Below are positions 38,248 through 42,258 of a stretch of DNA of 64,000 bases, piece after piece. Position numbers and translations under genes: made by a program. How positions within the stretch are numbered: position 1 is the first letter of the stretch; each line of letters starts with the position of its first letter. Below the pieces are notes generated by a model. The model was given only the letters and a program-made list of their open reading frames with translations. It did no database searches and was not told the origin of the DNA. Source of the DNA: Fimbriimonadaceae bacterium (GTDB lineage: Bacteria > Armatimonadota > Fimbriimonadia > Fimbriimonadales > Fimbriimonadaceae); the NCBI GenBank assembly GCA_019638675.1, contig JAHBTE010000001.1, forward strand, positions 714,605-778,604, in the 5' to 3' direction.

Positions 38248-38281
38248 AAAACCCCTACTGAGACTTCAGTAGGGGTTTCTT
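38248..38281. terminator. Strong bidirectional intrinsic terminator
   Basis: AAACCCCTACTGA pairs perfectly with TCAGTAGGGGTTT around a GACT loop, flanked by A-rich and T-rich ends (TTTCTTTATTT). It separates the + strand barrel gene (stop 38229) from the - strand proteasome operon (prcB stop 38285) and should end both. Confidence 0.92.
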
Positions 38282-38284
38282 TAT

Positions 38285-39022
38285 TTAGACTCTCACAGGA
38301 ATCTGATCAACCACAGCCTTAACTTCATCGGTTGTTAGCCGCCTCACCCCGGTTCTTGTCAAGTCAGCAACTACAGGCGTGTGGCGACGGATTCCACCCG
38401 TTGCAGAATCCATGTCCGATGCGAGTTCAAGAAGCATCAATGCGTCGGTCAGTACATCGTCCTTTGAGCGAGTAGACCAGGCTCCTTTTGTGCGGGCGAT
38501 ATATTCAAACACCCCTCTGATTCTTTCCGACCCTGAACCTGTGGTAGCGAAATCAGCACCCATAAAGCGCGCTCCAGCCGTATCAAAGAAGTAAACGCCA
38601 AAGACGTCCTTTTTCTTGTCATACACAGCGGCAATCGGCAGAAAAACCCCGCCCTGCATCGCCATTTCGAGGTTGCCAGCAAGTGCACGGGAAATCTCCA
38701 TCAACTTACCTTCGGTTGAAATCTCAAACTGATTCAATCGCTCATAGTATTTAAAGGCATGCCGCAGGTATCGGCAAACCTCAAGTGACCGAGCATAAGC
38801 ACCGCTAATTGCAACGACTGTTTCATCGTCCAGCACTTCAATTTTTTCGGCTCCTTCATACATGATGAGGTTGCCCATCGTCGCCCTGCGGTCTCCGATG
38901 ATCAGTACGCCGGAATCGTAGCGCAAAGCCATTACGGTGGTTCCGTGAACAGATTCAGTGGGGACAGCCGCAGGTTGAAATCCGACTAACTCAGCAAAAT
39001 CTTGAATTGGCGATTTCGTCAT
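38285..39022 (-). CDS. prcB: 20S proteasome beta subunit
   Basis: 245 aa. A 27-residue propeptide ends at Gly27, before Thr28 (sequence SVHGTTVMALRYD), the autocatalytic processing site. Taking Thr28 as Thr1, Asp44 (GDRRATMG) and Lys60 (YEGAEKIEV) fall exactly at the catalytic positions Asp17 and Lys33. Later motifs GSGSERIRGVFEYI and DMDSATGG match actinobacterial PrcB. The ATG overlaps the stop of the UBact gene (ATGA) and a terminator follows the stop. It should form the proteolytic rings of a bacterial proteasome. The alpha-subunit gene, normally adjacent, is not present in the window. Confidence 0.96.
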   Translation of the reverse strand: MTKSPIQDFAELVGFQPAAVPTESVHGTTVMALRYDSGVLIIGDRRATMGNLIMYEGAEKIEVLDDETVVAISGAYARSLEVCRYLRHAFKYYERLNQFEISTEGKLMEISRALAGNLEMAMQGGVFLPIAAVYDKKKDVFGVYFFDTAGARFMGADFATTGSGSERIRGVFEYIARTKGAWSTRSKDDVLTDALMLLELASDMDSATGGIRRHTPVVADLTRTGVRRLTTDEVKAVVDQIPVRV

Positions 39023-39201
39023 TGGCCCGACCGTTGCCGATACTTCTTCGCCTGATCAGGGTCTACGTTGCGCATCCGCTTGAGCAATTCGTTTGGTGCG
39101 GCTGGGCGTCCAATATCTGGCTTTGAAGGGCCACTGTCGTCGCCTAACTTACGATCAGGCTCGGCTTGTTTTGGCTTTGTTTGACGGTCGGCGTAAATCA
39201 T
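39019..39201 (-). CDS. Pup/UBact-family ubiquitin-like modifier
   Basis: 60 aa, very hydrophilic and Pro/Lys/Asp-rich, probably disordered. It ends DPDQAKKYRQRSGQ. The C-terminal Gly-Gln matches Pup-type modifiers that must be deamidated to Gly-Glu before ligation to substrate lysines. The core PxxELLKRMRNVDPDQAKKYR resembles UBact proteins of Gram-negative bacteria (Nitrospirae, Armatimonadetes) more than mycobacterial Pup. Start ATG 39201 overlaps the dop stop and its own TGA overlaps the prcB ATG, so all three are translationally coupled. Cognate ligase is not in the window. Confidence 0.94.
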   Translation of the reverse strand: MIYADRQTKPKQAEPDRKLGDDSGPSKPDIGRPAAPNELLKRMRNVDPDQAKKYRQRSGQ

Positions 39202-40661
39202 TGGAGTTCATTCACTCGAGAAATGAGTGCTTCGATAGATTCTACGTCGAAATCACTCTTTTCGTACCAAAGATTTGGCAGCAGGTCAAGGGAAACAGAG
39301 GGTGAATCAAAAGTGATTTTTTCCCAACTCGCGGTTTTTATACTTTTAGAAAACTTCCGGACAGCTACGGAACGGGCAACGGCGCGTGAACCAGTTGGGG
39401 CCTCATTAATGGAGGTAACTGGGATATCTGGTAGGCGTAGATAACCTGAAGATGCTAATCCTGCGTAAAGGCCTTCCTCTGCGTCAAGCAGATGGTAATT
39501 CAGGTCAAGCGACTGCATCGTTGATTCCTCCCACCCTCCTTCTGCTTCCGCAAACTGCTCTAAAAGCCATAACTTTGCTGCCCAATCTACATAAGGCCAG
39601 AATTCATCCCAATTGCCTGCTCTGTTCGCTAATAAGGCCCGGCACTCAAGAATAACTTTAATGATTTCGGGATCGTTGAGTTCAGCGCGGTCGGCGGCAT
39701 CTAAATACGATTCGAGGATATTGCGAGGCGTCGTCCAATTTGCCCCTTCAAGTTCCACCCTTCCTTCACCCGTTACATCCCGGCTGACTAGCTGAAATGA
39801 GCGCACTGGGTCATCTATGCGCCACAGAGGGGCCTTATCTTGTTCAATGAGAGTCACCGCTAGCTTAATGAGGCCGGCTTTGCGACGAGTACATCCTGGA
39901 TGCATATTTGAATCGCCACAGATCACGTGCAAACGGCGCCACTCATCCATAGCCGCATGAGGTTCGTCCCGCGTATTGAAAACCGGACGCCGATAAAGTG
40001 TTTCTACATTCATCGGCTCGACAAAAAAATCTGCTCGCTGGGAAATCTGATAACGAACTGGCCCTTTGCTCTCCGACCCGACCTTGCCAGCACCAACCAG
40101 AACCTGCCGAGCAACAAGCATAGGCATTAGCCCGAGAGCGAGTTCGTTGAATTCTATTGACCGAGGGACAAGGTAGTTTTCGTGTGTGCCGTAACTTGCA
40201 CCGTGGAAATCCGTGTTGTTTTTGTAAACCTTGACTTTGCGACTAATTTGCTTCGATAAAGCTTCGGCCGCATTTGCTACGACTTGCTCACCAAGCTGGT
40301 CATGTGCAACTAGATCATTCAAAGTCCAGCATTCTGGAGTCGCGTATTCTGGATGCCCGTGATCGTTGTAAAAACGCGCACCATTCGGGAGAATGCGGTC
40401 AGACCGTTCCTCTGCCGCAGGCGGGCGAGCACGGCCTTCATCAAATTTGGCATCTTCTGGGTCGAAGGCAAGGCGATCAACTTGAAATCCACGCATATCT
40501 CGTCGAGGAAATTCGGAACGGTAATCCCAGCCTAAAAAACCCTCACCCGGATATGCCCGGACAAGGGCTATGGAGTCATCTGCTTGGTCAGAAACAGTTC
40601 GATCCTCGACGGTAAACCCGAATTCGGTGTCTATCCCGGCGAGGATCGAAGGTTGGTTCAA
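39198..40661 (-). CDS. dop: Pup deamidase/depupylase (Dop) homologue
   Basis: 487 aa; TTG start at 40661 by homology (SILAGIDTEFGFTVED). Glutamine-synthetase-like motifs: GIDTEFG (ATP/Mg site), NGARFYNDHGHPEYATPEC (with the Dop catalytic Asp), KNNTDFHGASYGTHENYL, ISQRADFF and NTRDEPHA...RRLHVICGDSN. Dop rather than PafA is favoured by the extra loop between WDYRSEF and NGARFY (~residues 45-90) and by GASYGTHENY. Its job is to convert the terminal Gln of the adjacent UBact to Glu and to remove the modifier from proteins. No second PafA-like gene is in the window. Confidence 0.93.
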   Translation of the reverse strand: MNQPSILAGIDTEFGFTVEDRTVSDQADDSIALVRAYPGEGFLGWDYRSEFPRRDMRGFQVDRLAFDPEDAKFDEGRARPPAAEERSDRILPNGARFYNDHGHPEYATPECWTLNDLVAHDQLGEQVVANAAEALSKQISRKVKVYKNNTDFHGASYGTHENYLVPRSIEFNELALGLMPMLVARQVLVGAGKVGSESKGPVRYQISQRADFFVEPMNVETLYRRPVFNTRDEPHAAMDEWRRLHVICGDSNMHPGCTRRKAGLIKLAVTLIEQDKAPLWRIDDPVRSFQLVSRDVTGEGRVELEGANWTTPRNILESYLDAADRAELNDPEIIKVILECRALLANRAGNWDEFWPYVDWAAKLWLLEQFAEAEGGWEESTMQSLDLNYHLLDAEEGLYAGLASSGYLRLPDIPVTSINEAPTGSRAVARSVAVRKFSKSIKTASWEKITFDSPSVSLDLLPNLWYEKSDFDVESIEALISRVNELQ

Positions 40662-40667
40662 TTGTGA

Positions 40668-41969
40668 TTACTGAGCGTAGACAACAAATACACCAGTGGA
40701 TGGCAAGTTGCCTGGGCCACCGCTAAGCGTGTAATCGCCATCCTTTGTTACGCCGCCGACCTTAGTTAGGTTAGAGAACGTACCTGAGAAGCCACCAGTT
40801 CGGCTACCCTCAGGGGTTGCTGCTTGATCGACTGGCCACAGATCGACTGTTCCACCATTAGTGGTGATAGTGGCATTTCCAAACCACAGTCCAGTGATGG
40901 TACTTCCACTTCGGGTTACTACAACCGCAGTTTGTGCACCACCAGCTTTCGTGGTTGGGAAGATGATCATGCTTGAAGTACCAAGGTTCGTTACCACGTT
41001 ACTGACATCTCTCCAAGCACCCTGTACGGATGTGATTCGAACCACGGCTGGCGGAATGACTTGTGGGTCTGGCTCAAGAACAGTGTAAGTTCCAGGGGCT
41101 ACGCCATCGGGAAGTTGAACTTGATCGGTAAGAACCCCGGATTCAATGAAGTTAGGGCTGAACAAATCAAATGATCCATCAAAACCAAATCCTTGACCGA
41201 GTCCAAATCCGTCTCCACTAACCATAAATTTGGATGCTGGGCCACCGCCCGCCATATTGGGTCGGCTTCCAACACTGGAGATATCAAAACTGATCATGTC
41301 GCTGAGCGAACCTTCAATTGCAGGGTTCACATCAAGCAAGTTATCAAAGTTGAATTCAAATTCATCAAACACTGGGTTTAAGCCAGCGTTTAGAGAAAGT
41401 GACGCGTTGTTGAGATAAACCGCCAAAGTCGTTTGCCGACCAGGCAAGAGTGGCATGTTTACGGGAATATTGTTGATCGGGAAGAGTCCACTGAACACTT
41501 CGAGAAGAGATCCATTGAGTTGCTCTTCGTACATATTCCAAACGTCAAAGCTCAAACTTGTATAAGTTTTTGACGTTGCTCCAACAGGCAGTGCTTGGGC
41601 AAAGCTGTATTTGTGAACACCATAACCGTCCAAGTGTAGATTCAAACCATCCAACGAACCAGTAAAGTCGGTTGGGATAATATCCACCGGACTGTTACTA
41701 AATCTGACGTTATTGATCTTCGCATAGATCGAACCTGGTACCCGACGGTTTTGACCAGTGAGGAAGACAACACGAACGTCCGCCATCCCACTCGGGAAAT
41801 TAACTGTCGGGACAGAACGTGTCGGGGCTCCCGTGGAGCCTGAACTCCCGGACGAACCTGATCCACCTGTCGTACTTCCTATGTCTCCGGTTCCACCGGC
41901 ACAGCCGACAACAACACTGCCAGCGACTAAAAGGATCCACCACTTTCTCAAGGCAAACTCCTGCATCAT
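40668..41969 (-). CDS. Secreted lipoprotein, function unknown
   Basis: 433 aa from ATG 41969 (41966 possible). A type II signal peptide: positively charged start, hydrophobic stretch (WWILLVAGSVVVGC) and lipobox VVGC, then a Gly/Ser linker (TGGSGSSGSSGSTG). The mature part is beta-rich, with SSMIIFPTTKAGGAQTAVVV and ITGLWFGNATITTNGG. It ends 6 nt before the dop start on the same strand, so it may share a transcript. No family is recognised. Confidence 0.75.
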   Translation of the reverse strand: MMQEFALRKWWILLVAGSVVVGCAGGTGDIGSTTGGSGSSGSSGSTGAPTRSVPTVNFPSGMADVRVVFLTGQNRRVPGSIYAKINNVRFSNSPVDIIPTDFTGSLDGLNLHLDGYGVHKYSFAQALPVGATSKTYTSLSFDVWNMYEEQLNGSLLEVFSGLFPINNIPVNMPLLPGRQTTLAVYLNNASLSLNAGLNPVFDEFEFNFDNLLDVNPAIEGSLSDMISFDISSVGSRPNMAGGGPASKFMVSGDGFGLGQGFGFDGSFDLFSPNFIESGVLTDQVQLPDGVAPGTYTVLEPDPQVIPPAVVRITSVQGAWRDVSNVVTNLGTSSMIIFPTTKAGGAQTAVVVTRSGSTITGLWFGNATITTNGGTVDLWPVDQAATPEGSRTGGFSGTFSNLTKVGGVTKDGDYTLSGGPGNLPSTGVFVVYAQ

Positions 41970-42258
41970 AAATCTCGCAAAACTCATCAAAGGCACCCAC
42001 GCATGGCAATTGGCCAGTCTTGCGACCTTTGCTCGCGACAGAGTACACCAATTGAACCGCAGAATTCCTGCCTTCGCTCATAAATGACTGAATAATTTAT
42101 GTTAATCGTTCAGAAAACGCAAAATTAAGGGAATTTCCTCGCTAAAAAATGTCCTGATCCAAGATTCTATGCATCTGTTAAGGAATATTTGTCGAAAACC
42201 TTGATTAGGGCCTTGCGGTAAGCCAGAACGAGACGACGTAGGTAGAATTCTCGGTCTG
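41970..42258. other. Intergenic region between lipoprotein and yceD genes
   Basis: 289 bp, AT-richer in its middle (42075-42200). It must hold the divergent promoters of the lipoprotein-dop operon (-) and the yceD-plsX-fabH operon (+). TAGAAT at ~42243-42248 is 10 nt before the ATG 42259 and may be a -10 element. I see no conserved RNA or gene. Confidence 0.4.

Follow-up and report, generated by a model that had tools for sequence, protein, structure and literature searches.

The window analysed here, a 64,000-nucleotide stretch of DNA from a Fimbriimonadaceae bacterium, carries three joined genes on its minus strand, with the open reading frames found where the original prediction had put them: dop (39198..40661; 487 aa), which encodes a protein of the Pup-ligase superfamily, depupylase/deamidase-type; a gene for a 60-aa modifier (39019..39201) whose C-terminus is Arg-Gln-Arg-Ser-Gly-Gln; and prcB (38285..39022), which encodes a 20S proteasome beta subunit of 245 aa with a propeptide. 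Both junctions are 4-base ATGA overlaps, as had been claimed, between the dop stop at 39198 and the modifier start at 39201 and between the modifier stop at 39019 and the prcB start at 39022. The start codon of dop is probably the TTG at 40661. Just 3' of prcB lies a hairpin (38248..38279) with a 13-14 bp stem and a T-rich tail on both strands, that is, a strong, bidirectional intrinsic-terminator-like structure that would close the operon. At the other end, a lipoprotein-like gene without Pfam or NCBIfam match (40668..41996, minus strand) lies 6 bp upstream of dop, and a gene of this kind was found immediately 5' of dop in 20/20 own-family loci examined. Because of this recurrent placement on the same strand, the transcription unit may hold four genes, of which the lipoprotein-like gene may come first in Fimbriimonadaceae, maybe co-transcribed with the other three. 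Searches for sigma-70 promoters in the operon region and for Rfam elements found none.

The trio (at ~753-755 kb of the 2.83-Mb chromosome contig; the assembly is 98% complete) represents only half of a system. One each of the remaining parts was found on the same chromosome: PafA, a second Pup-ligase-family protein (contig 2041522-2042886, 1.3 Mb from the trio), an ARC/Mpa ATPase (contig 672265-673794), and PrcA, the 20S alpha subunit (contig 1092054-1092515). Hence, the system is complete, with its six parts in four places, and the families, the order of the genes and what else the genome encodes all agree with the earlier assignment of the trio to a Dop/modifier/PrcB unit of a Pup-like system. 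The diderm host that had been proposed is also borne out, since Omp85 is present, as expected of a diderm.

Comparison with relatives (Fimbriimonadaceae and other Armatimonadota MAGs) places this arrangement in context. UBact, the family to which the modifier is assigned below, occurs in 77 of the 151 sampled Armatimonadota genomes, all 77 of which also carry Pup-ligase-family (PF03136) enzymes. At least 21 of the 40 UBact regions from other families hold the intact order ARC-Dop-UBact-PrcB-PrcA-PafA within ~9 kb, the remaining regions being mostly cut by contig ends or missing one part nearby; in the family of the window, only Dop-UBact-PrcB are found together (20/20 loci). Dispersal of the genes in the family is not decay, since 30 of its 31 genomes keep ARC and Pup-ligase enzymes and 29 keep PrcA. 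The 1.5-Mb reduced genome of one family member (G170) has lost PafA/Dop, PrcA and ARC together, as would be expected if the system were lost as a single functional unit.

Accordingly, we favor, with a probability of about 0.9, the reading that this Fimbriimonadaceae-type Armatimonadota bacterium encodes a complete UBact conjugation-proteasome system, of which dop, UBact and prcB at this locus are one part; presence, families, motifs, synteny and selection were computed here, and every chemical step is proposed by analogy with the homologous Pup system. Specifically, Dop would deamidate the UBact C-terminus from Gln to Glu, after which PafA would phosphorylate the gamma-carboxylate with ATP and link UBact to lysine residues on its targets. 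The ARC ATPase would recognise the disordered tag, unfold the target and feed it into a 20S core formed by PrcA and PrcB, where Thr1 of PrcB would cut it, and Dop would additionally strip the UBact tag. Against this reading, Dop, PafA, PrcB, PrcA and ARC all score under the NCBIfam equivalog cut-offs, which were set on actinobacterial proteins, and thus their exact activities are transferred; for Dop and PrcB, such scores are expected of homologues far from Actinobacteria. The altered NTRDEPHA block of PafA and the ARC tail without GQYL, both described below, weigh against it as well.

On the proteasome side, PrcB matches PF00227 (76 bits, E 4.5e-21), and its best match of all models is TIGR03690, though under the cut-off (131.7 bits vs. 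191.9, E 3.2e-38); its closest solved relatives are actinobacterial PrcB proteins. The processing site reads HG-TTV and, counting from Thr1, HG-TTVMALRYDSGVLIIGDRRATMGNLIMYEGAEK places Asp at residue 17 and Lys at residue 33, leaving the Thr1/Asp17/Lys33 set intact, as originally proposed. ARC scores 459.5 bits against TIGR03689 (cut-off 504.75, not reached; aligned positions 6-509 of 512) and has the OB/AAA proteasomal ATPase architecture, with OB domains PF16450 and PF17758. The M. tuberculosis ATPase uses a C-terminal GQYL tail to open the 20S core. The Tyr of this tail contacts Arg26 or Glu119 of PrcA, its carboxylate contacts Lys52, and PafE-driven degradation requires both Arg26 and Lys52 of PrcA (PMC9599533, PMC8142254). 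ARC here ends in VRKTIM, the GQYL/HbYX docking motif being absent, and a Tyr in the last four residues is likewise missing from all 54 complete homologues examined. The last two residues are Ile or Val in 25/25 complete tails from other families, and 25/29 tails of the own family end in Ile or Val followed by a hydrophobic residue. Of the 66 PrcA homologues compared, all have Lys52, 65 have Asp144, none has Glu119 and one has Arg26, the alignment near residue 26 being less certain as most homologues have an Arg three columns earlier. In the M. tuberculosis PrcA reference behind this numbering, residues 26, 52, 119, 144 and 146 agree with the published ones. A search for the bacterial proteasome activator Bpa/PafE gave no match in the genome, and likewise none in the control genomes, so that such an activator may still be encoded.

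Alternatively, conjugation might work but be uncoupled from the 20S core, in which case ARC would serve as a separate unfoldase or assist depupylation, with UBact being mainly a regulatory mark. An ARC without a GQYL or HbYX tail would fit such a scenario, given that the ATPases of proteasome-less actinobacteria lack that motif (review PMC3511204), and so would the dispersal of ARC, PrcA and PafA in Fimbriimonadaceae. However, the genes for ARC, UBact and the 20S core are clustered in most other families, prcB remains joined to the UBact operon here, and both the ARC tail itself and Lys52 and Asp144 of PrcA are conserved at the frequencies just given. We therefore consider uncoupling unlikely; the simplest reading of these alignments is that ARC of a proteasome-coupled UBact system carries what would be a changed but real docking tail.

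Sequence features distinguish the two Pup-ligase-family enzymes. The enzyme adjacent to UBact matches PF03136 (414 bits, E 8e-124), scores higher against the Dop model TIGR03688 (333.9 bits, cut-off 492.3) than against the PafA model TIGR03686 (260 bits, also under its cut-off), and is closer to the solved Dop structure 4b0r (8.6e-78) than to PafA 4b0t (2.7e-52). It carries both the Dop-loop (WDYRSEFPRRDMRGF) and NDHGHPEY, the motif with the catalytic Asp, and at positions that separate Dop from PafA (PMC7947786) it reads NDHGHPEYATPE (ATPE) and TASW, with Ser before the late Trp. The distant enzyme is without the Dop-loop and reads VGSHLEYATAE (VGSH, ATAE) and FDW at these positions. Based on the loop and on the Pro/Ser/VGSH/ATAE/DW split, the adjacent enzyme is, with good confidence, a predicted Dop and the distant one a predicted PafA. 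It is conceivable that the labels are swapped, with ligation done by the enzyme beside UBact and depupylation by the distant one, or that one enzyme does both, since both fall under the equivalog cut-offs, the distant enzyme scores almost equally against the two models (PafA 256 bits vs. Dop 248 bits), and the alpha-loops of both are divergent. The restriction of the Dop-loop to the adjacent enzyme and the expected division of the discriminating positions render this possibility very improbable, and we keep the assignment of Dop beside UBact and PafA at a distance. The UBact-type PafAs aligned here have NPKW or NPKR (NPKW in the PafA of this genome) where Dop and actinobacterial PafA have NTRDEPHA; this replacement, seen in the PafAs of L004:1231-2943 and L061-L096, could reflect a change in substrate or nucleotide handling.

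The modifier, confirmed as a 60-aa protein ending in RQRSGQ, exceeds the cut-offs of both curated UBact models, namely Pfam PF20513 (79.4 bits, cut-off 27.8, E 1.7e-22) and NCBIfam NF033388, ubiq_like_UBact (74 bits, cut-off 35, E 8e-21), and by these profile matches it classifies as a member of the UBact family. Comparison with the nearest congener gives 26 synonymous vs. 3 non-synonymous differences over the 60 codons of the frame (dN/dS ~0.02); in pairs further apart, synonymous sites are saturated, with the UBact protein still conserved. The frame is under strong purifying selection, and the codon conservation on which the original prediction had made its case depend is evident in related genomes. 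The idea that the ORF lying between dop and prcB is spurious, as its shortness and its lack of homology to Pup or any solved protein might suggest, can be dismissed in view of the Pfam and NCBIfam matches, the dN/dS value and a YRQRSG block that is invariant in 97/97 distinct loci.

The resemblance to UBact rather than to mycobacterial Pup that had been proposed thus holds. A direct sequence link between UBact and Pup was considered and rejected: searching PF05639 (Pup) with UBact gave no match at E<=10, and hhalign assigned the pair a probability of 0.5%, so that homology is undetectable. UBact presumably acts like Pup, judging from the enzymes that accompany it, and is not a member of the Pup family. 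Our search for a solved structure of UBact, or for homology to any solved protein, found none. AlphaFold models the protein with moderate confidence (mean pLDDT 68, pTM 0.23) and two short C-terminal helices (38-44 and 48-58); at this confidence, the model adds nothing beyond the view of UBact as a likely disordered tag. In two loci of one genus, L074 (G013) and L075 (G079), a second partial match to the UBact tail lies beside the UBact gene and could be a duplicate modifier or a remnant.

The residue that follows the invariant YRQRSG block is Gln in 55 of the 97 loci and Glu in 42, and nothing else. On a tree of Dop and PrcB from these loci, the state changes at least 28 times, compared to 31.6 (SD 2.4) for shuffled labels, and hence Gln or Glu is almost unlinked to relatedness. 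For instance, in two genome pairs (L047/L056 and L074/L075) the UBacts are identical but for the last residue, and the Gln-Glu exchange takes a single C/G base change. The active-site motif and loop of Dop are kept in both the Gln and the Glu group, apart from a few Dop proteins in each group that are divergent or truncated. It had been argued that the Gln end requires a deamidase, which the adjacent Dop provides; this captures half of the role of Dop, but near-identical Glu-ended relatives keep an intact dop, and deamidation alone thus does not explain its retention. Tag removal, we infer, is the better reason for the conservation of Dop. Pup is known to end in GGQ or GGE depending on the species, with dop kept alongside GGE (PMC3511204), so that the variation is known in kind, and what is new in UBact is its rate.

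Combining these observations, we tentatively propose, at somewhat less than even odds, that the system has its own docking chemistry, in which an ARC tail without Tyr, ending in two aliphatic residues, would enter a PrcA pocket that keeps the carboxylate-binding Lys52 and is without the Tyr-binding Arg26/Glu119, and that the terminal Gln/Glu would be selectively near-neutral, with deamidation a dispensable entry step and Dop kept for tag removal. Two predictions follow for the UBact system, Gln/Glu neutrality and a Tyr-less docking tail. More broadly, our sampling separates essential features (the YRQRSG tail, Dop and the 20S core) from those free to vary (the last residue and the gene cluster), and extends a hardly studied bacterial ubiquitin-like system by a lineage whose gene set is complete and whose evolution is well sampled.

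UBact was described in 2017 in Gram-negative bacteria (Lehmann, Udasin, Livneh, Ciechanover, BBRC 483:946, cited in PMC5751360 and PMC12751074), and is a bacterial ubiquitin counterpart, expected to tag proteins for proteasomal destruction. Given this description and the curated family models, the type of system is already known. The locus shares with it the conserved RSG[QE] end, a modifier over both family cut-offs, Dop, PafA, ARC, PrcA and PrcB homologues in the genome, and a Gram-negative host, and differs in that the genes lie in four places, with only dop-UBact-prcB joined by ATGA overlaps. Consequently, the view of an atypical, little-studied version outside Actinobacteria stands in part: the system is hardly studied, but it is no isolated oddity, being present in about half of the sampled Armatimonadota and published since 2017. 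The actinobacterial Pup-proteasome (Pup, Dop, PafA, Mpa, PrcA and PrcB of Mycobacterium) has the same six parts, with homologous enzymes and 20S subunits and a modifier ending in Gly-Gln or Gly-Glu, and in both systems the Q/E end varies by species and dop is kept with E (PMC3511204). In contrast, UBact ends in RSG[QE] and Pup in GG[QE], UBact shows no detectable homology to Pup, and ARC and PafA here are without GQYL and NTRDEPHA, respectively. Outside Actinobacteria, small modifiers also accompany PafA-family enzymes in Plesiocystis and Rhodopirellula, whose membrane-linked Pup ligases (Iyer, Burroughs, Aravind 2008, PMC2588565) have trans-membrane inserts and no proteasome linkage, whereas the operon in the window includes a proteasome subunit.

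Finally, relatives that have Pup-ligase-family genes but no UBact pointed us to a separate cassette with the order JAB protease, ARC-like AAA ATPase, Dop-like enzyme, 60 to 70-aa modifier and PafA-like enzyme. It is present in genomes of three Armatimonadota families (L284:5377-12792 in G005, L285:3301-9601 in G053 and L298:1369-7440 in G007), and G007 has both the cassette and UBact, the other two genomes being without UBact. The modifiers end in RQQGGE, RQDGGQ and KQRGGQ and match one another with E-values of 6e-5 and 3e-4; that of G005, the only one scanned, gave no Pfam or NCBIfam family match, and no 20S proteasome subunit genes were seen beside the three cassettes. No published description was found in the non-subscription papers searched, and the cassette is possibly a third Pup-like conjugation system, apparently undescribed. 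Further divergent Pup-ligase-family genes outside the UBact locus, beside which no modifier with the same ending was found, occur at L299:6605-11511 (G082), L286 (G006) and L287 (G132); some of these genes have ATPase neighbours, and G082 carries three tandem copies.
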